41,027 nucleotides of DNA. Source: Streptomyces ossamyceticus. Its GTDB lineage: Bacteria > Actinomycetota > Actinomycetes > Streptomycetales > Streptomycetaceae. The position numbers and the translations under genes were made by a program. The notes under the pieces are model-generated. The model was not told where the DNA came from. It saw nothing but the letters and a program-made list of their open reading frames with translations, and ran no database searches. Every line of letters starts with the position of its first letter. Position 1 is the stretch's first letter. Shown one piece after another: positions 15,634-23,357 of the stretch. The stretch is from the NCBI RefSeq assembly GCF_001418475.1, contig NZ_LIQX01000008.1:1-41027 (forward strand), read 5' to 3'.

Positions 15634-16254
15634 ATGGCCAAGTACATCGACGTGCACCCCGACAACCCCCAGCCGCGCGCCATCGGGCAGGTGGCCGAGA
15701 GCGTCCGTCAGGGTGGGCTCATCGTCTATCCGACGGACTCGTGTTTCGCGCTGGGCTGCCAGCTGGGCAGTCGTGACGGCATCGAGCGGATCCGTACGAT
15801 CCGCCGGCTCGACGACCGCCACCACTTCACCCTCGTCTGCCAGAACTTCGCGCAGCTGGGCCAGTTCGTGCACGTCGACAACGACGTGTTCCGCGCCGTC
15901 AAGGCGTCGACGCCCGGCAGCTACACGTTCATCCTGCCCGCCACCCGTGAGGTGCCGCGCAAGCTGCTCCACCCGAAGAAACGAACCGTCGGCGTGCGCA
16001 TCCCCGACCACCGGGTGGCCCAGGCGCTGCTCGCGGAGCTGGGTGAGCCGCTGGTCTCCAGCACCCTGCTGCTCCCCGACGAGGAGGAGCCGCTGACGCA
16101 GGGCTGGGAGATCAAGGAACGGCTCGATCACCAGGTCGACGCCGTGGTGGACTCCGGGGACTGCGGTACGGAGCCCACGACCGTGATCGACTTCTCCAGC
16201 GGCGAGGCCGAGATCATCCGCAAGGGAGCGGGCGACGTCTCCCGGTTCGAGTGA
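15634..16254 (+). CDS. yciO: YciO-family (YrdC/Sua5-like) protein
   Basis: 206 residues, the same length as E. coli YciO as I recall it. The opening YIDVHPDNPQPRAIGQ, then GGLIVYPTDSCFALGC, RHHFTLVCQ, SYTFILPATREVPRKLL, TVGVRIPDHRVAQALL, EPLVSSTLLLP and PTTVIDFSSGEAEIIRKGAGDV align throughout with that protein. The YrdC fold binds nucleotides and double-stranded RNA, and TsaC/Sua5 relatives make threonylcarbamoyl-AMP for tRNA t6A. YciO itself is a shorter paralogue whose role is unsettled, so I do not claim t6A synthesis. It convergently faces the DUF6745 gene. Confidence 0.9.
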   Translation: MAKYIDVHPDNPQPRAIGQVAESVRQGGLIVYPTDSCFALGCQLGSRDGIERIRTIRRLDDRHHFTLVCQNFAQLGQFVHVDNDVFRAVKASTPGSYTFILPATREVPRKLLHPKKRTVGVRIPDHRVAQALLAELGEPLVSSTLLLPDEEEPLTQGWEIKERLDHQVDAVVDSGDCGTEPTTVIDFSSGEAEIIRKGAGDVSRFE

Positions 16255-16290: not shown

Positions 16291-17385
16291 TCAGGTCTGG
16301 CGCAGGGGCTCGTACTCCTCGGCGCTGAGCCCGAACGTCCAGGCCACTCCCTCGCGGGCCGTCCGCGTCGTCGGGGGCACCCGGAGCCAGTAGGTGCGGC
16401 TCGTGCCGTCGGGCTCCGGGGTGGAGTTGACGACCTCCACCATCACCACGTCCTCGTCGCCGGGCAGTTCCACGCGCCAGAGCACGCCCGTCTCGTCCCG
16501 GTCCACCGGCTTGGCGCCCGACTCCTCCAGGTAGCGGTCGTAGCCGTAGTGCTCCAGCATGACGCGGCGCAGCTCGGCGTTCTCCTCGTCGCGGATGCGC
16601 GCGGGCGTCAGCGTGGCCAGGGAGTCGAGGAACTCGCCTGGCACGGGCAGCCCGCGCCAGGCGTGCAGGGCGAAGCCGTCCGAGTAGGCGAGGGCGGGGC
16701 CGTCACCCCGGTCCAGCCGGCCCGCCTCGTCCCGGTGCAGTTCGGTGGGGCGCTCGGCGACGACCGCCACGTTCTCGTAGGGCCACCACCAGCCCGCCGT
16801 GCGGGCGACCTCGGCGAATCCGTCGAGGCCCGGGGTCGAGTCGGCCGTCGCGGGCCCCGCGTCCGTGTCGGGGGTGGGGCCGGTGCCGGTGCCGGTGGCG
16901 TCCAGGTCGTCGAAGGCGGCGAGCCAGGCCGCGTCGTGCTGGCCGAGGACCGCGTCCAGGAGGAGGAGCCGGACCCGGGTCTCCTCCTTGCGGTCGTCCG
17001 GGGCCAGGGCCTCGACCACGCCGGTGCGGACGCGGTCGACGAGCGGCCGGGTGGTGTCCCACAGGTCCGCGCCGGTCGACCGCCAGTGGTCGCTCCAGCC
17101 CGCCGGGCCCAGCCGGGCGTGCAGCAGGCCTCGCGCGGCGGCGACCGGGCGGTTGCGGACGGCGTCACGGACGCTCGCCCCGGTGCCGGTCACCGTCTCG
17201 CCGTCCTCGGCCGGTGTCCCCGACAGCAGGCGCACCGCCTCCAGGGGCGAGCGGGCCCACACGATCCGCTCGGGCTCCGGCAGCCCGGCCCGCCGGTAGG
17301 CGAGCCGTACGCCCGCCTCGGTCCGTGCCCTGTCGCCGGCTCCCGTGGCCGCCGCCACCGCACGCCAACTCGTCCGCTCCGTCAC
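16291..17385 (-). CDS. DUF6745 domain protein
   Basis: 364 residues from GTG 17385, chosen because AGGAGG lies 6 nt upstream; the in-frame ATG at 17406 would contain that site. The first 200 residues are variable, helical, with a Gly/Thr/Pro-rich break. The conserved part contains ARTAGWWWPYENVAVVAERP, LHRDEAGRLDRGDGPALAYSDG, FALHAWRGLPVP, DEENAELRRVMLEHYGYDRYL and a terminal beta-rich domain (VMVEVVNSTPEPDGTSRTYWLRVPP). This is the DUF6745 pattern as I know it; function unknown. It follows the small GEVTGHAH gene by 66 nt and probably shares its transcript, divergent from the STM4015-STM4011 operon. Confidence 0.82.
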   Translation of the reverse strand: MTERTSWRAVAAATGAGDRARTEAGVRLAYRRAGLPEPERIVWARSPLEAVRLLSGTPAEDGETVTGTGASVRDAVRNRPVAAARGLLHARLGPAGWSDHWRSTGADLWDTTRPLVDRVRTGVVEALAPDDRKEETRVRLLLLDAVLGQHDAAWLAAFDDLDATGTGTGPTPDTDAGPATADSTPGLDGFAEVARTAGWWWPYENVAVVAERPTELHRDEAGRLDRGDGPALAYSDGFALHAWRGLPVPGEFLDSLATLTPARIRDEENAELRRVMLEHYGYDRYLEESGAKPVDRDETGVLWRVELPGDEDVVMVEVVNSTPEPDGTSRTYWLRVPPTTRTAREGVAWTFGLSAEEYEPLRQT

Positions 17386-17451
17386 GCCGTTCCTCCTGGA
17401 TGTCATGTCCGATCCCGATGTCCTGTGCCCTGCTCCCTCGGCCGCCGCGGT

Positions 17452-17778
17452 TCAGTCCGCGACGATCCGCACCGAACCCGGCACGTACTCGCGCTGGCGC
17501 ACGACCCGGTACCAGCCCTTCGGCAGGGAGATGGGCGCGTGCTCCTCGTGGACGACCCGGGCGCCCTCCGGGACGTGCAGCAGCATCGGGCCGAAGGCGT
17601 CCGTCTCGCGGATGAGGCGGCCGGGGCCGACGACGGCGTGCGCGTGTCCGGTGACCTCGCCGAGGGCGAGGACGAGCCGGCCCCGTCCGTCGCGCGGTTC
17701 CGACGCGGCGTCACGCGCCGTGCCGGGCACGGCGGTCTCCGCGATCGGCGCGATGAGGACGTCTCCTTGCCGGTACAT
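17452..17778 (-). CDS. Small GEVTGHAH-motif protein
   Basis: 108 residues from ATG 17778, preceded by GGAGGGAG. MYRQGDVLIAPI, LALGEVTGHAHAVVG and HEEHAPISLPKGWYRVVRQREY are recognisable. Short proteins with this QGDVL, TGHAH and EEHAPI pattern occur in phage, plasmid and chromosomal loci and have no function I know of. The histidine-rich motifs (TGHAHAV, HEEHAP) could bind a metal, which is inference. It is the first gene of a two-gene unit with DUF6745 and starts 279 bp from the divergent STM4015 gene. Confidence 0.8.
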   Translation of the reverse strand: MYRQGDVLIAPIAETAVPGTARDAASEPRDGRGRLVLALGEVTGHAHAVVGPGRLIRETDAFGPMLLHVPEGARVVHEEHAPISLPKGWYRVVRQREYVPGSVRIVAD

Positions 17779-18056
17779 GGGTCTCCCTCCCGTCGGAGCA
17801 CTCGCTGTGCCCCGGATGGAAAGGACCGTAGAGGCAGGCACTGACAATCGCCCCGGACGCGGTGTCCTCGGCCCCTCCTTCAGCCCCTGTTCACGGGGCC
17901 TGTCCACAAGGAACGGGGTCCGCTGTCCGCGTTGTCAGAGGGGCTTGGTAGAACTCCCCTACCCGACGGCGCCGTGCGCGCCCCGGGGAGCAACGGGGGG
18001 ATCCGCGCACGGGCTCGGGTCCCGCCCACCGACATGGAACGAAGGGGCGGGCACAC

Positions 18057-19025
18057 ATGACCATCGGAAGCCACTTGCGGGAGTTCCACGACCTGCCCGT
18101 CGTCCAGTTCCCCGACTCCGTGAAGGGACCCGAGGGCACCGGTCAGCTGCCCGCTCCGGGGGAGGTCGCCTGGTCCGTCGCCGTGGACTCGTACGACAGC
18201 GAGGAGGCGTGGGAGGACGCCTTCGCGCGGTTCCTCGCCTCGATCGACACCACGAAGGTGCGGGCGCTCGTCGTGGGCGCGTGGAACGAGGCGTACGACA
18301 GCGGGCCCGAGCCGGTGATCGAGGCGCTGGTGGCGGCGAAGGACCGGCTGCCCGCGCTGCGCGCGCTGTTCCTCGGCGACATCGTGATGGAGGAGTGCGA
18401 GATCTCCTGGATCAACCAGGGCGATGTCGGCCCGCTGCTCGCGGCCTTCCCGGAGCTGGAGGAGTTCGGTGTGCGCGGCGGTCAGGGACTCGTGTTCCCG
18501 GCGCTTCGGCACGAGCGGCTGCGGAAGCTGACCGTCGAGACGGGCGGCATGCCCGTCGAGGCGGTGCGCGGTGTGGCGGCGAGTGATCTGCCGGCCCTCG
18601 TCCACCTCGACCTGTGGCTGGGCACGTCCGAGTACGGCGGTGACTCCGAGGTGGCCGACCTGGCGCCGATCCTGGCGGGCACCCGGCTGCCCTCCCTCAG
18701 GCATCTGGCGCTGCGCAACAGCGAGATGCAGGACGACATCTGCACGGCGCTGGCCTCCGCCCCGGTGGTGGCCCGTCTGGAGGTCCTCGACGTGTCGATG
18801 GGCGTCCTCACCGACGACGGCGCGACCGCGCTGCTCACCGGGCAGCCGCTCACCCACCTCACGACGCTGGACCTGCACCACAACTACCTCAGCTCGGCGA
18901 TACGCGACCGTCTGCGGGACTCCCTGGAGGCCGAGGGCGTCCAGGTCGACGTCGACCCGGACGACGCGGACTCCGACGAGGACGACGACGGCACGGTCTG
19001 GCGCTTCGTCGCGGTCGGCGAGTAG
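18057..19025 (+). CDS. STM4015-family leucine-rich-repeat protein
   Basis: 322 residues from ATG 18057. An N-terminal part (HLREFHDLPVVQFPDSV and an acidic helix) is followed by irregular LRR units: LPALRALFLGDIVM, FPELEEFGVRGG, LRKLTVETGGM, LPALVHLDLWLG, LPSLRHLALRNSEM, VARLEVLDVSMG and LTHLTTLDLHHNYLS. A very acidic tail (DVDPDDADSDEDDDG) ends in WRFVAVGE. This matches the STM4015 family, named after a Salmonella locus, which always travels with STM4011-STM4014 as far as I know. The LRR face could present or recognise the substrate of the downstream enzymes. It is the first gene of the operon; the next start is 46 bp away. Confidence 0.88.
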   Translation: MTIGSHLREFHDLPVVQFPDSVKGPEGTGQLPAPGEVAWSVAVDSYDSEEAWEDAFARFLASIDTTKVRALVVGAWNEAYDSGPEPVIEALVAAKDRLPALRALFLGDIVMEECEISWINQGDVGPLLAAFPELEEFGVRGGQGLVFPALRHERLRKLTVETGGMPVEAVRGVAASDLPALVHLDLWLGTSEYGGDSEVADLAPILAGTRLPSLRHLALRNSEMQDDICTALASAPVVARLEVLDVSMGVLTDDGATALLTGQPLTHLTTLDLHHNYLSSAIRDRLRDSLEAEGVQVDVDPDDADSDEDDDGTVWRFVAVGE

Positions 19026-19071
19026 CGGGCGCGGCACCGGATTTCGGGGGTACGAGGTGAGGGGGGTCGGT

Positions 19072-20238
19072 GTGTCCGTTCGGGCCGGCGCGGGTGCGGA
19101 CCCGTTCAGGTGGGCGGTCGTCGGCAACGGCGAGAACCGCAGGGTCGGGCTGTTCGTCGCGGCGGCCGAGGCCGCGGGCGTGGGGACGCCGCGGGTCGTC
19201 GAGTGGCGGGACGTCCTGCGCGACGGCGGCCACGAGTTCGCCGACGACGAGGTCGTACGGCTGGACTCGCCGGGCGAGAACGCCGAGGTGGACCGGCTGC
19301 TGCGCGGCGTCGACGATCCGACGCGTGTGGAGGGCTCGGCCACCTGGTACGGGCGCTTCCTGGACGCGGTCGGGTCGTTGCGGGGCGGGGTGCGGCTGGA
19401 CGAACCGGCGGATCTGGCGGTGCTGTTCGACAAGCGGCTCTGCCACGCCCGGCTCGACGCGGCGGGCGTCCCGGTACCGCCGTCGCCCACCTCGGGTGGC
19501 CACACTGCGGTGCGCGGCTGGGACGACGTACGGGCGCTGATGCGGGAGCACGGCATGCCGCGTGTCTTCGTGAAGCCCGCGCACGGCTCCTCCGCGTCCG
19601 GTGTGCTGGCCGTCGAGTCGTCGGCGAGCGGCCGGATCCGGGCCACCACCTCGGTCGAGGTGGCGGAGGACGGCCGGCTGCGCGCCCCGCTCCGGCTGCA
19701 CAACTCGCTGCGGGTGCGCCGCTACACCGACGAACGCGAGATCGCCGGCATCGTCGACGCCCTCGCACCGGACGGGCTGCACATCGAGCGGTGGCTGCCG
19801 AAGGCGTCCGCCCACGGCAGGTCCGCGGATCTGCGGGTGCTGGTCGTGGCAGGGCGGGCCACCCACGCCGTGGTCCGCACCAGCCGCTTCCCGATGACGA
19901 ATCTCCATCTCGGCGGCGCGCGGGGTGATCTGATGTCGGTCGTCGACGCGGCGGGCGACCGCTGGCGCCAGGCCCTCGACGTCTGTGAGCGGGCCGCCGC
20001 GTGCTTCCCGGACACCCTGAGCGTCGGGGTGGATCTCCTCCCCGCCATCGGCTGGCGCCGGTTCGCCGTCGGCGAGGTCAACGCCTTCGGCGATCTGCTG
20101 CCCCGGCTGACCGGTCTGCCCGGCGGCCCCGCGGAGGGCCTGGACACCTACACGGCGCAGATCGCGGCCGTACGGGACCGGTCGCCGTCGGCGCTCTCGC
20201 ACCACCCCCAGGCAAGGAAAGACCATGCACCCTTCTGA
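19072..20238 (+). CDS. STM4014-family protein with ATP-grasp features
   Basis: 388 residues from GTG 19072, with a GAGG/GGGGGG site upstream; GTG 19057 is an alternative. The N-terminal domain (RWAVVGNGENRRVGLFVAAAEAAG) resembles a pre-ATP-grasp fold. FDKRLCHARLDAAGVPVPPS, VFVKPAHGSSASGV (Lys168), HIERWLPKASAHGRSADLRVLV, GVDLLP (Asp321) and GEVNAFGDLLPRL (Glu335, Asn337) reproduce the lysine plus D/E/N Mg-ATP pocket of ATP-grasp ligases such as RimK. I therefore infer carboxylate-amine ligation or similar chemistry. The last 14 bp overlap the next gene, suggesting translational coupling. Confidence 0.85.
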   Translation: MSVRAGAGADPFRWAVVGNGENRRVGLFVAAAEAAGVGTPRVVEWRDVLRDGGHEFADDEVVRLDSPGENAEVDRLLRGVDDPTRVEGSATWYGRFLDAVGSLRGGVRLDEPADLAVLFDKRLCHARLDAAGVPVPPSPTSGGHTAVRGWDDVRALMREHGMPRVFVKPAHGSSASGVLAVESSASGRIRATTSVEVAEDGRLRAPLRLHNSLRVRRYTDEREIAGIVDALAPDGLHIERWLPKASAHGRSADLRVLVVAGRATHAVVRTSRFPMTNLHLGGARGDLMSVVDAAGDRWRQALDVCERAAACFPDTLSVGVDLLPAIGWRRFAVGEVNAFGDLLPRLTGLPGGPAEGLDTYTAQIAAVRDRSPSALSHHPQARKDHAPF

Positions 20239-21127
20239 CACGGCCCTCCGGCCGCCCACGGCCGACGCCGAGCCCGTCCCCCACACCGCGCCCGCGCCCG
20301 TGTCCCACCCCGCGCCCGACATGAACGAAGTGGTGGGCCGGGACGACCTGTTGCTGCTCACCCTCGACACCCTGCGGTACGACGTGGCGGTGGAGCTGGC
20401 CGCGGCCGGGCGACTGCCGAACCTGGCGGCCCGCCTGCCCGGCGGTGTCTGGGAGAAGCGGCACGCGCCCGGCAGCTTCACCTACGCCTCGCACCAGGCG
20501 ATGTTCGCCGGCTTCCTGCCGACCCCGGCGGCCCCGGGGCCGCATCCCCGGCTGTTCGCGAGCCGGTTCGCCGGCAGTGAGACGACCGCGGGCCGCACCT
20601 TCGTCTTCGACACCCCCGACCTGGTGTCGGCGCTCGCCGAGGGCGGCTACCGCACGGTGTGCGTCGGCGGTGTCGGGTTCTTCAACAAGCAGGGCGCGCT
20701 CGGCAGCGTCCTGCCGGGCCTGTTCCAGGAGAGCCACTGGGAACCGGAGTTCTCCGTCGCGTCCCCGACGTCCTTCGAGGCGCAGGTGGCCCGCGCCGAG
20801 GAGGTGGTGGCCGCACTGCCCGCCGAGCAGCGGCTGTTCCTGTTCCTCAACGCCTCGGCGCTGCATCAGCCGAACTGGTTCCATCTGCCGGGCGCCACCC
20901 GTGAGGCGGGCGACAGCCTCGCCACGCACGCGGCGGCCCTGGAGTACATCGACCGGCACATCGGGCGGCTGTTCGCCGCGATGAGCGCGCGGCGCCGCTG
21001 CTTCGCCGTCGTCTGCTCCGACCACGGGACGACCTACGGCGACGACGGCTACACCGGGCACCGGCTGGGCCACGAGGCCGTGTGGACCGTCCCCTACAGC
21101 CACTTCTTCCTGGAGCCGTCCGCATGA
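20225..21127 (+). CDS. STM4013/SEN3800-family hydrolase (alkaline phosphatase superfamily)
   Basis: 300 residues from ATG 20225 with AAGGAAAG upstream. The first 32 residues are Pro/Ala-rich and may be dispensable; ATG 20321 is an alternative. LLLLTLDTLRYDVA provides Asp48 and a possible Thr49 nucleophile. GSFTYASHQAMFAGFLP and CSDHGTTYGDDGYTGHRLGHE provide the remaining metal ligands (Asp-His and later His) of sulfatases and phosphopentomutase-like enzymes. No signal peptide is present, so it probably acts in the cytoplasm, unlike most sulfatases. There is no formylglycine CxPxR motif, so a phospho- rather than sulfo-hydrolase or transferase is more likely. The stop overlaps the next start by 4 bp (ATGA). 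Confidence 0.87.
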   Translation: MHPSDTALRPPTADAEPVPHTAPAPVSHPAPDMNEVVGRDDLLLLTLDTLRYDVAVELAAAGRLPNLAARLPGGVWEKRHAPGSFTYASHQAMFAGFLPTPAAPGPHPRLFASRFAGSETTAGRTFVFDTPDLVSALAEGGYRTVCVGGVGFFNKQGALGSVLPGLFQESHWEPEFSVASPTSFEAQVARAEEVVAALPAEQRLFLFLNASALHQPNWFHLPGATREAGDSLATHAAALEYIDRHIGRLFAAMSARRRCFAVVCSDHGTTYGDDGYTGHRLGHEAVWTVPYSHFFLEPSA

Positions 21128-22464
21128 CCGTGACCGCGCCCCCCGTTCGCCCGTACCAGCACTACGTGTACGCCTATCCGCACAAGACGGCGTACCGCAG
21201 GCTGCCCGAGCGGCCCCGCCTCGCCGACCTGTGGGCGGGCGAGTCGAAGGCGGCCCTGTCGCTGTACGCGCACATACCGTTCTGTGAGGTGCGCTGCGGG
21301 TTCTGCAACCTGTTCACACGGATCGGCGCCCCGGACGGGCTGACCGGGCGCTATCTCGACGCCCTGGAGCGGCAGGCGATCGCCGTCCGGGAGGCGCTCG
21401 GCGACACGGAGCCGGTGCGGTTCGCGAACGCCGCGTTCGGCGGTGGCACCCCGACGTTTCTGGAGGCCGCCGAGTTGGAGCGGCTCTGCGACATCGCGGA
21501 GCGGCACATGGGCGCGGACCTGCGGGCGATCCCGCTGTCGGTGGAGGCGTCCCCCGCCACGGCGACCACCGACCGGCTGTCGGTGCTGGCCGCACGGGGC
21601 ACGACGCGGCTGAGCCTCGGCGTGCAGAGCTTCGTGGAGGAGGAGGCGCGCGCGGCCGTGCGACCGCAGCGGCGTGCCGATGTGGAGGCGGCCCTGTCCC
21701 GCATCCGCGACACCGGCATCCCCGTCCTCAACATCGACCTGATCTACGGCATCGACGGGCAGACGGCGACCAGTTGGCGGCTCTCCCTGGACGCGGCCCT
21801 CGCCTGGCGGCCCGAGGAGATCTACCTGTACCCGCTGTACGTAAGGCCGTTGACGGGTCTGGGCCGGCACGCCGACGCCGCGACGGCCGACCGCGACTGG
21901 GACGAGGCCCGGCTGCGCCGCTACCGGGAGGGCCGCGACCATCTGCTCGCCCGGGGCTACGAGCAGGTGTCCATGCGGATGTTCCGCCGCGCGGACGCGC
22001 CGCCGCAGGGCCCGGACGACTACGCCTGCCAGACCGACGGCATGATCGGCCTGGGCTGCGGCGCCCGTTCGTACACGTCGAGGCTGCACTACTCCTTCGA
22101 CTACGCGGTGGCCATGCGGGAGATCCGCGGCATCATCGACGACTACACCGCCACCGAGGACTTCGGGCGGGCCGTGCACGGCCGCGAGGTCGACGAGGAC
22201 GAGGCGCGCCGCCGTCATCTGTTGCAGTCGCTGCTCCAGGCGCGGGGGTTGCCGGTGGCCGACTACCGGCGGCGGTTCGGCGCCGACCCGTACGACGACT
22301 TCCCGGCGGAGTTGGAGCGGCTGGCCGCACGCGGCTGGCTCGCCGGGGCGGGCGGGGAGGTGCTGAAGCTGTCCGACGAGGGGCTGGCGCACTCGGACGC
22401 CATCGGGCCCGACTTCTTCTCCCCCGCCGTTCGGGCCGCGATGGCCGACTACGAGCTGAAGTGA
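21124..22464 (+). CDS. STM4012-family radical SAM protein (HemN-like)
   Basis: 446 residues from ATG 21124, in an ATGA overlap with the previous stop. The iron-sulfur motif is CEVRCGFC (Cys54, Cys58, Cys61). HemN-like signatures follow: AAFGGGTPTFL, PLSVEASPATATTDRL, SLGVQSFVEEEARA, LNIDLIYGIDGQT, YLYPLYVRPLTGLGR, GLGCGARSYTS and a winged-helix-like C-terminus. HemN itself oxidises coproporphyrinogen III, but many HemN-like proteins do other radical chemistry. The operon context (no heme genes) argues for a different substrate. It should generate a 5'-deoxyadenosyl radical from SAM in the cytoplasm. Confidence 0.92.
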   Translation: MTVTAPPVRPYQHYVYAYPHKTAYRRLPERPRLADLWAGESKAALSLYAHIPFCEVRCGFCNLFTRIGAPDGLTGRYLDALERQAIAVREALGDTEPVRFANAAFGGGTPTFLEAAELERLCDIAERHMGADLRAIPLSVEASPATATTDRLSVLAARGTTRLSLGVQSFVEEEARAAVRPQRRADVEAALSRIRDTGIPVLNIDLIYGIDGQTATSWRLSLDAALAWRPEEIYLYPLYVRPLTGLGRHADAATADRDWDEARLRRYREGRDHLLARGYEQVSMRMFRRADAPPQGPDDYACQTDGMIGLGCGARSYTSRLHYSFDYAVAMREIRGIIDDYTATEDFGRAVHGREVDEDEARRRHLLQSLLQARGLPVADYRRRFGADPYDDFPAELERLAARGWLAGAGGEVLKLSDEGLAHSDAIGPDFFSPAVRAAMADYELK

Positions 22465-22472
22465 CGGCCGCC

Positions 22473-23357
22473 ATGGACCTGACGCTGCTGTACCGCGGCC
22501 CGCTCGCGTCGTGCGACTACGACTGCCCCTACTGCCCGTTCGCCAAGCGCCGCGACTCGACGGAGCAGTTGCGGGCCGACCGGGCGGCGCTGGAGCGGTT
22601 CACCGGCTGGGCGCGGTCGTCGACCGGCGACCGGCTGTCGGTGCTGTTCACCCCGTGGGGCGAGGGGCTGACGCGCTCCTGGTACCGGCGGGCGCTGGTC
22701 GAGCTGTCGCACGAGCCGCACATCGACCGGGTGGCGATCCAGACGAACCTCAGCTGCCGTACGGAGTGGCTGGCGGAGGCCGACCGGGACACGGTGGCGC
22801 TGTGGTGCACGTACCACCCGGGCCAGACCCCGTACGAACGGTTCCTCGGCAAGACCCGACGGCTCGCCGCGACGGGGGTCCGCTTCAGCGTGGGCGTCGT
22901 GGGCCTGCCGGAACATCTGGAGGAGGCCCGTCGGCTGCGCGGGGAGCTGCCCGAGGAGGTGTACCTGTGGGTGAACGCCGCCGAGGGGCACACCTACACC
23001 GACGAGGAGGCGGCGACGTGGACGGCGTTGGATCCGCTGTTCCCGTTCAGTCGTCACCCGCACCGGTCGGCGGGCCGCGCGTGCCGCACCGGCGCGACGG
23101 TGGTGTCCGTCGACGGTGACGGCACCGTCAGACGGTGCCACTTCGTCCGGGACGAACTCGGCAACCTCTACGACGGCTCCTTCCGTACGGCGCTCGCGCC
23201 CCGCGTCTGCCCACTGGCCGTCTGCGACTGCCACATCGGGTACGTCCATCTGGAGACCCTGCCGCTGTACGACGTGTTCGCGGGCGGCGTCCTCGAACGG
23301 ATACCCACGGCGCAGGCCCGCCTCGGGATGCCGCTCAGTCCTCGCGCTCGTAGGTGA
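22473..23357 (+). CDS. STM4011-family radical SAM protein
   Basis: 294 residues from ATG 22473. A GTG at 22461 overlapping the preceding TGA (GTGA) is an equally possible coupled start, adding four residues. MDLTLLYRGPLASCDYDCPYC carries Cys14, Cys18 and Cys21. VAIQTNLSC and VALWCTYHPGQTPYERFLGK form the rest of the radical SAM barrel. The C-terminal part has five more cysteines (204, 222, 246, 251, 253) in CRTG, RRCHF and VCPLAVCDCHIGY, which resembles a SPASM/twitch-type auxiliary iron-sulfur site. The 3' end overlaps the convergent gene at 23335 by 23 bp. It is the last gene of the STM4015-STM4011 operon. Confidence 0.9.
   Translation: MDLTLLYRGPLASCDYDCPYCPFAKRRDSTEQLRADRAALERFTGWARSSTGDRLSVLFTPWGEGLTRSWYRRALVELSHEPHIDRVAIQTNLSCRTEWLAEADRDTVALWCTYHPGQTPYERFLGKTRRLAATGVRFSVGVVGLPEHLEEARRLRGELPEEVYLWVNAAEGHTYTDEEAATWTALDPLFPFSRHPHRSAGRACRTGATVVSVDGDGTVRRCHFVRDELGNLYDGSFRTALAPRVCPLAVCDCHIGYVHLETLPLYDVFAGGVLERIPTAQARLGMPLSPRARR

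Follow-up and report, generated by a model that had tools for sequence, protein, structure and literature searches.

A glutamate-ended C-terminal tail, invariant among the leucine-rich-repeat proteins of the STM4015-STM4011 gene set, suggests a gene-encoded carrier or substrate protein

In the amino-group carrier pathways, the amino group of a substrate is joined by LysX to the gamma-carboxyl of the C-terminal glutamate of LysW, the tail of which reads EDWGE, as set out in the accessible parts of two papers (PMC10433800, PMC9303977). The same parts of the first record that an exchange of the corresponding glutamate of ArgW for alanine gives a haloarchaeon an arginine requirement (PMC10433800), and those of the second that such carriers have negatively charged parts recognised by charge (PMC9303977), while ArgX was termed a RimK-like protein in the accessible text of a third (PMC4490483). 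Here, we analyzed a stretch of 41,027 nucleotides from Streptomyces ossamyceticus (contig NZ_LIQX01000008.1, positions 1 to 41,027; hereafter the window), a part of a 9.3-Mb draft genome, in which five + strand genes of the STM4015, STM4014, STM4013, STM4012 and STM4011 families are accompanied by two - strand genes encoding a DUF6745 protein and a small protein designated GEVTGHAH. It was found that STM4015, the leucine-rich-repeat (LRR) protein of this set, ends in the same residue, Glu, in every distinct relative compared, and this invariant Glu-ended tail is newly described here.

The locus resembles LysW-LysX, ArgW-ArgX and the Streptomyces protein Vzb22 in that a Glu-ended, carrier-like protein with a usually acidic stretch adjoins an ATP-grasp gene (PMC10433800, PMC9303977, in the parts accessible). 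Like the tail of LysW, that of STM4015 combines the Glu with a small residue at position -2, a usually acidic stretch and aromatic residues; unlike the tail of LysW, that of the window protein lacks the exact EDWGE motif. The corresponding features of the window were the following.

18057..19025, + strand: STM4015 family leucine-rich-repeat protein, 322 aa (NF038076, 404.8 bits, cut-off 275)
18948..18998, + strand: acidic linker of STM4015, DVDPDDADSDEDDDGTV, of a length and sequence that vary among relatives
18999..19022, + strand: C-terminal tail of STM4015, WRFVAVGE, with the invariant last Glu, the proposed attachment site

The C-termini were read from 145 complete frames scoring above 150 bits with an STM4015 profile of our own; two STM4015-like frames (L221 and L222) were set aside, and 140 distinct proteins from 115 loci in five phyla remained. 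The last residue was Glu in all 140, as it had been at every earlier size of the sample (all 13 proteins from ten loci, then 99 of 99 and 131 of 131). The sample was mostly actinobacterial, and its other members came from Methylobacterium, three Deinococcus, Paenibacillus, Salmonella, Escherichia coli and Bacteroides. An exchange of Glu for Asp was recorded in none of the 140 sequences, and the residue preceding the final Glu was always Gly, Ala, Ser or Thr. A gapped, mostly acidic linker preceded the final Glu already in the first alignment (the 13 proteins from ten loci), and among 27 sequences non-redundant at 60% identity that Glu was the sole invariant column outside the repeat body. For a base rate, 522 other open reading frames (ORFs) from the actinobacterial loci and the window were selected by length and codon composition; Glu was the final residue in 23, and the tail pattern occurred in none. 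The last residue was also variable in STM4014 (the commonest in 35 of 109), STM4013 (60 of 110) and STM4011 (25 of 117). Both frames that had been set aside were without the tail: L222 runs into a contig end, and L221:6960-8189 (G436 contig 1) lies away from the operon, contains an internal TGA and reaches 187 NCBIfam bits against the cut-off of 275; it is apparently a decaying STM4015 copy. The tail was likewise missing from a 26-bit LRR look-alike (L226) in a genome without the operon.

An origin of the tail Glu as an artefact of gene overlap was considered and rejected. The last codon was GAG in 66 and GAA in 33 of 99 genes, and all three stop codons were used after it, so that overlapping genes do not generally dictate the Glu end; an overlapping ATG was possible only in 27 of the 99 (GAATGA). 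The linker ahead of the tail varied in length and sequence and was usually acidic, and such a variable linker, as judged from the alignments, speaks against a purely structural cause of the fixed end. Position -6 of the tail was usually Phe or Tyr, whereas Methylobacterium, Salmonella and E. coli have Ser, Asn or His there; position -8 was widely variable. Within the repeat body, a very conserved motif, GD..EE.EISWI, was observed.

The number of STM4015 genes was found to differ between loci. Two to five of them were present in tandem in 19 of 118 loci (five in L208), with bodies 45-75% identical and the tail kept in every copy, and each enzyme gene beside them was single. Six more copies lay either on a different contig from the operon or some 100 kb away from it; all six kept the tail, and their genomes all carried the operon as well. 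For one of these (L219), the distance is unsure and may be smaller than it looks, as the gene begins 0.7 kb into its contig and the operon of this genome is itself split over contigs. Among 246 genomes of the class, STM4015 above its cut-off was never found without STM4011. STM4015 thus behaves like a substrate: its copies multiply while the enzyme genes stay single, a pattern that fits a substrate better than it does a scaffold.

The four enzyme genes follow STM4015 on the same strand.

19057..20238, + strand: STM4014 family ATP-grasp ligase (NF038074, 450.2 bits, cut-off 175)
20225..21127, + strand: STM4013/SEN3800 family hydrolase of the alkaline phosphatase superfamily (NF038075, 420.3 bits, cut-off 250)
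21124..22464, + strand: STM4012 family HemN-like radical S-adenosylmethionine (SAM) protein, CEVRCGFCN (NF006067, 645.1 bits, cut-off 380)
22473..23357, + strand: STM4011 family radical SAM protein with a SPASM-like C-terminal region (NF038073, 417.1 bits, cut-off 200)

All seven genes were confirmed at the places given in an earlier note, which had been made from the letters of the DNA. The five family names assigned there were all right, as every + strand protein passed its curated cut-off in the NCBIfam profile search. The tight packing it had described also held with the preferred starts: the junctions from STM4015 to STM4011 are a gap of 31 bp, overlaps of 14 and 4 bp and a gap of 8 bp, and three of the four thus overlap or abut within 8 bp. 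The start of STM4014 is uncertain (GTG at 19057 or at 19072), and for STM4013 a second in-frame ATG, at 20321, agrees better with the start of the profile; with this later start, the STM4014/STM4013 junction becomes a gap of 82 bp.

A profile built from ten STM4014 proteins matched LysX best (2.5e-5), followed by 3vpd (5.1e-5), biotin carboxylase (5.8e-5) and RimK (1.8e-4; two RimK entries at about 2e-4) in the PDB. The record of 3vpd reads ribosomal protein S6 modification protein, and we take it to be an ArgX-type enzyme. The similarity was located in the part that binds ATP and in a D-x-R ... R-x-S ... T-N segment, each of them a weak match when taken singly. Single-sequence searches of the PDB with STM4014 or STM4011 gave nothing meaningful, and the matches were obtained with profiles alone. 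Among ten relatives, K166, D251-x-R253, T274-N275, D319 and N335 of STM4014 were invariant and E333 nearly so. In STM4013, D48, T86, D266, H267, H279 and H283 were invariant among nine relatives, with Thr86 as the putative nucleophile, and the best PDB match was a nucleotide pyrophosphatase/phosphodiesterase. STM4012 keeps the CxxxCxxC motif, and its profile matched HemN (1.2e-52) and NocN (1.2e-32). STM4011 has CxxxCxxC and five further invariant C-terminal cysteines (C14, C18, C21, C204, C222, C246, C251 and C253 in ten relatives), and its C-terminal region matched residues 319-395 of SkfB (4.8e-4). The roles of these residues follow from general knowledge of the superfamilies, including their usual layout of metal ligands. 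With their active-site residues kept, STM4014, STM4013, STM4012 and STM4011 all look active.

A HAD hydrolase was seen as a sixth, overlapping gene of the operon in Salmonella (L016:8834-9568) and E. coli (L194:10900-11598). In Bacteroides, a HAD hydrolase-like region is fused after STM4011 in one protein (L017:9965-11530), and such a hydrolase also lies near the Deinococcus taeanensis cluster, the recurrence being confined to some lineages. Its presence hints that the pathway includes further phosphate reactions. The two enteric loci that were opened thus differ from the window, as both carry the overlapping HAD gene but not the DUF6745-GEVTGHAH pair; in the window, the pair is present and the operon contains no HAD gene.

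The order STM4015-STM4014-STM4013-STM4012-STM4011 on one strand is identical in Salmonella and E. coli, and the five genes were found in the same order on plasmids of Methylobacterium, three Deinococcus, Paenibacillus, Salmonella and two Streptomyces; with our own profiles, they were also detected on a plasmid of Nonomuraea. An STM4013-STM4012 segment was present in 154 of 5,426 complete E. coli genomes, one of which was opened and contained all five genes. An IS1 element lies inside this segment in the E. coli record NZ_OZ546938.1. STM4011 exceeded its cut-off in 24 of 61 genomes of the genus, in five of 198 of a phylum sample and in 31 of 246 of the class. In the class, STM4015 was above its cut-off in the same 31 genomes and STM4014 in 30 of them, the exception (G463) having its STM genes at contig ends; the match lists of the 246 genomes were compared by eye. 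Of 14 control genomes, two had sub-cut-off matches to STM4011 and five to STM4014. The five-gene set is therefore patchy, yet strictly inherited as a unit in these class genomes, and the recurrence of the neighbourhood is not due to chance. The earlier note had named hits to unrelated characterised families and a lack of conservation elsewhere as the outcomes that would count against it; neither was encountered.

ORFs of at least 90 aa from 44 loci and the window were clustered, and the 45 largest clusters consisted of the STM families, ORFs judged by eye to be antisense shadows, genes syntenic among close relatives and generic genes of transporter-like type. No further recurrent partner of the operon was seen in these clusters, which were not profiled. 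A defence system was also considered, for which PADLOC gave weak matches only (best 29 bits, STM4012).

Full-text searches, with a limited coverage of subscription journals, found no published function for the five STM families or DUF6745, in line with the earlier note, which was aware of none for the five. The mentions of STM4013 and STM4015 in the accessible text were table entries, one concerning sigma-54 binding sites and one positive selection. In the same partly accessible literature, no paper with a matching function was found for ATP-grasp, radical SAM and LRR proteins together or for carrier proteins with radical SAM enzymes.

We proposed that STM4015 is a carrier or substrate, that STM4014 loads its terminal Glu, and that the radical SAM enzymes and the phosphoesterase act there; this reading was given an even chance. 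It was preferred because the tail always ends in Glu and the adjoining ligase weakly resembles LysX and RimK. The LRR body would serve as a handle recognised by the enzymes, and the flexible, usually acidic linker with the short tail would expose the C-terminal Glu. STM4014, acting as a ligase of the LysX/RimK type, would activate the Glu carboxylate with ATP and join an amino compound to it. STM4011, with its SPASM-like auxiliary cluster region, and the HemN-like STM4012 would then remodel the attached unit or neighbouring residues of the tail, and STM4013 would remove or transfer phosphate. The outcome would be either a released product, as in LysW-type carrier pathways, or the modified LRR protein itself. 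What we infer here is the ligation to Glu, the sequence of the reactions and what kind of unit is added. The earlier note had envisaged that ATP-dependent ligation, radical reactions and phosphoester hydrolysis act on a substrate which the LRR protein presents; this fits the present results and was sharpened to the invariant Glu as the likely attachment point.

The gene set belongs to named families, and the proposed mechanism would be a new form of carrier-protein biosynthesis. It differs from the amino-group carrier pathways, as its modifying enzymes are of the radical SAM and alkaline-phosphatase types and no releasing hydrolase was recognised beside the STM core. In the pearlins (PEARL; tgl, tmo), chemistry also takes place at the C-terminus of a carrier and includes a radical SAM step (accessible parts of PMC9303977). 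However, no PEARL, peptidase or transporter was found among the nine window proteins scanned against Pfam and NCBIfam.

The two - strand genes and the region that they share with the operon were the following.

16291..17406, - strand: DUF6745 protein, 371 aa (PF20530, 377 bits), an accessory gene paired with the GEVTGHAH gene
17452..17778, - strand: GEVTGHAH protein, 108 aa (phrog_27831, E 1.4e-15), an accessory gene encoding a small beta protein
17779..18056, no strand: 278-bp shared upstream region between the divergent genes, presumed to hold both promoters

The divergence of the two genes from a 278-bp region and the assignment of the longer one to DUF6745 had been claimed before, and both were borne out (377 bits with PF20530 against a Pfam gathering score of 27). 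The GEVTGHAH gene starts with the ATG at 17778, and the mechanical ORF extends to 17907. A Sua5/YrdC-like (L-threonylcarbamoyladenylate synthase-like) gene at 15634-16254 of the window adjoins the DUF6745 gene and is also present in the close relatives L027, L032 and L057. No Pfam or NCBIfam model matched the GEVTGHAH protein, which matched an uncharacterised phage family (phrog_27831), and its best named matches were from Streptomyces. In 93 sequences, His45, His47, His77, Glu79, His80 and the C-terminal Asp were invariant. The AlphaFold2 models had mean confidence scores (predicted local distance difference test) of 88.9 for GEVTGHAH and 90.8 for DUF6745. The fold search with the GEVTGHAH model gave no Foldseek match below E 0.4, which does not imply a novel fold; several cupins were among its weak structural matches (Z 2.0-2.5, root-mean-square deviation 3.1-4.0 over 59-69 residues). 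These weak matches to small metal cupins and the five invariant His and Glu residues make a metal-binding barrel possible. For the DUF6745 model, no confident PDB match was obtained and the N-terminal half was barely covered, again without implying a novel fold. The C-terminus of DUF6745 proteins mostly reads ...P..[QE][TSA].

The earlier note had treated DUF6745 and GEVTGHAH as integral parts of the system, and a reading of all seven genes as one obligatory system, with these two essential, would draw on their linkage to the STM genes in Actinomycetota, Deinococcota and Pseudomonadota. The pair was divergent beside STM4015 in 78 of the best 80 GEVTGHAH genome-contig loci (Streptomyces, Nocardia, Actinacidiphila) and two plasmids, convergent beside STM4011 in four plasmid and eight other loci, and co-directional with the STM genes in Methylobacterium. 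All seven genes occurred in 75 of the 80, four of the other five being cut by a contig end and one (L065) having no recognisable STM4014; these 80 are the best of 582, and the linkage thus describes close relatives only. All 17 strong GEVTGHAH matches (above 100 bits) in the 246 class genomes lay within 7 kb of STM4011. On the other hand, no strong match was found in 14 of the 31 class genomes with STM4011 above its cut-off. Six weak GEVTGHAH matches in class genomes adjoined weaker DUF6745 matches elsewhere, and nine of 32 DUF6745 matches in the class survey had no adjoining GEVTGHAH match. The pair was absent from the Salmonella, E. coli and Paenibacillus stretches examined and was present without STM genes in plasmid stretches of Deinococcus ficus and Skermanella. 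It also travels alone: of 80 viral, putatively phage contigs retrieved by the GEVTGHAH profile, 58 (56 at a stricter threshold) had both genes, the available sequence of the other 22 stopping at most 0.8 kb past the GEVTGHAH gene. None of the 80 contained STM genes, and no STM4011 was confirmed in viral contigs. GEVTGHAH relatives were seen in nine cyanophage records, mostly of Microcystis phage. An obligatory seven-gene system was therefore judged very improbable. The linkage in differing arrangements suggests a functional tie, though an optional one, and the pair is best described as an optional accessory, perhaps a metal-binding partner or a regulator. In Deinococcus ficus, a VWA-domain gene adjoins the DUF6745 gene, and in D. 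taeanensis one stands next to the STM cluster (L018:8315-11222; L021:174-2192); these two loci would hint at a tie between the pair and VWA proteins.

Several observations weigh against the proposal that the Glu of STM4015 is loaded by STM4014. The single stretches matching LysX were weak (i-Evalues 0.46 and 0.9), biotin carboxylase ranks between LysX and RimK, and the window STM4014 reached only 22.6 bits with rimK_fam (cut-off 143) and 18.4 bits with LysX_arch (cut-off 276). The STM4014 model also gave sub-cut-off matches in 71 more class genomes, as well as in the five controls. STM4015 itself is an LRR protein of about 300 aa in one to five copies and not of the small, Zn-binding LysW type, and non-acidic linkers exist (L216, L220 and one copy each in L104 and L023). 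The weightiest objection is that fixed or nearly fixed C-termini were observed elsewhere: the last residue of STM4012 was Lys or Arg in 110 of 118, that of DUF6745 was Thr, Ser or Ala in all 145 distinct relatives, and that of GEVTGHAH was Asp in all 172. The latter two sets include phage-borne proteins with no STM gene nearby, and a fixed C-terminus is therefore no proof of modification. A Bacteroides finegoldii plasmid has no STM4012 and only a 183-bp remnant of STM4013 between STM4014 and STM4011 (L017:9600-9965), yet the tail is kept. No recurrent product-releasing gene was seen beside the core in the 45 unprofiled clusters, which speaks against the release of a product; as no linked peptidase was recognised, the LRR protein may instead be modified permanently.

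Two other explanations would also account for the tail. STM4015 could be a large precursor resembling those of ribosomally synthesised and post-translationally modified peptides (RiPPs), its repeat body serving as a leader and its tail as a core altered in place, with no block added. The radical SAM enzymes would introduce cross-links or methylation and the ATP-grasp enzyme a side-chain amide or ester, and the pathway may end with the modified LRR protein itself, its several copies being directed to different partners. Diverged copies served by one enzyme set and the tail kept in off-operon copies agree with this explanation, as do the tail aromatics, usable by SPASM-type enzymes, and the match of the STM4011 C-terminal region to SkfB, a RiPP maturase. 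Graspetide ATP-grasp ligases make lactam and lactone links (accessible parts of PMC8939145). As in graspetides and other RiPPs with such enzymes, an ATP-grasp and a SPASM-like radical SAM enzyme are encoded next to a protein that has an acidic stretch at its C-terminus. However, the putative precursor here is an LRR protein, folded and at least about 280 residues long, far longer than a short graspetide precursor (the clustering of nearby ORFs covered those of at least 90 aa only), and the words LRR, leucine-rich, Salmonella and HemN occur nowhere in the text of that graspetide survey (PMC8939145). In addition, Glu alone is invariant in the tail, with positions -6 and -8 varying, and LysX and RimK are among the closest ligases of solved structure, in a comparison made without graspetide ligases. 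This explanation was considered rather unlikely. We also considered it unlikely that the tail is a docking signal read by an enzyme pocket, the true substrate being a free small molecule or a protein bound to the repeats. The fixed ends of GEVTGHAH and DUF6745 away from any STM ligase would agree with docking, and the conserved GD..EE.EISWI motif could be a binding site. A complete lack of Glu/Asp swaps in 140 sequences would be unexpected for mere docking, however, and only the copy number of STM4015 varies, in better agreement with a substrate than with a scaffold.

A role of the operon in tetrapyrrole or haem metabolism through STM4012 would be suggested by its strong profile match to HemN. 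However, STM4012 remained far below the cut-offs for HemN (126 of 325 bits), HemW (129 of 205) and HutW (130 of 400), whereas it scored 645 against 380 in its own family, and its nearest solved relatives include NocN, a radical SAM methyltransferase. Such a role was therefore regarded as extremely improbable.

With the loading of the STM4015 Glu retained as the preferred reading, it can be put forward tentatively, a little short of an even chance, that these LRR proteins represent a novel kind of gene-encoded carrier or substrate, on which an ATP-grasp enzyme loads the Glu and a pair of radical SAM enzymes modifies the attached unit. If true, several diverged LRR carriers, some of them off the operon, would be kept per single enzyme set, and a further carrier logic would be added to those of thioester carriers, LysW-type carriers and pearlins; it would extend over at least five phyla, with enteric bacteria among its hosts. 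It would also indicate a radical-made metabolite or protein modification that is as yet unknown and provide a simple sequence mark for finding carriers. The five families bear placeholder names despite their presence in Streptomyces, Nocardia, Deinococcus and Salmonella, and in E. coli as the STM4013-STM4012 segment; the invariant tail narrows their 'function unknown' to the C-terminal peptide of STM4015.

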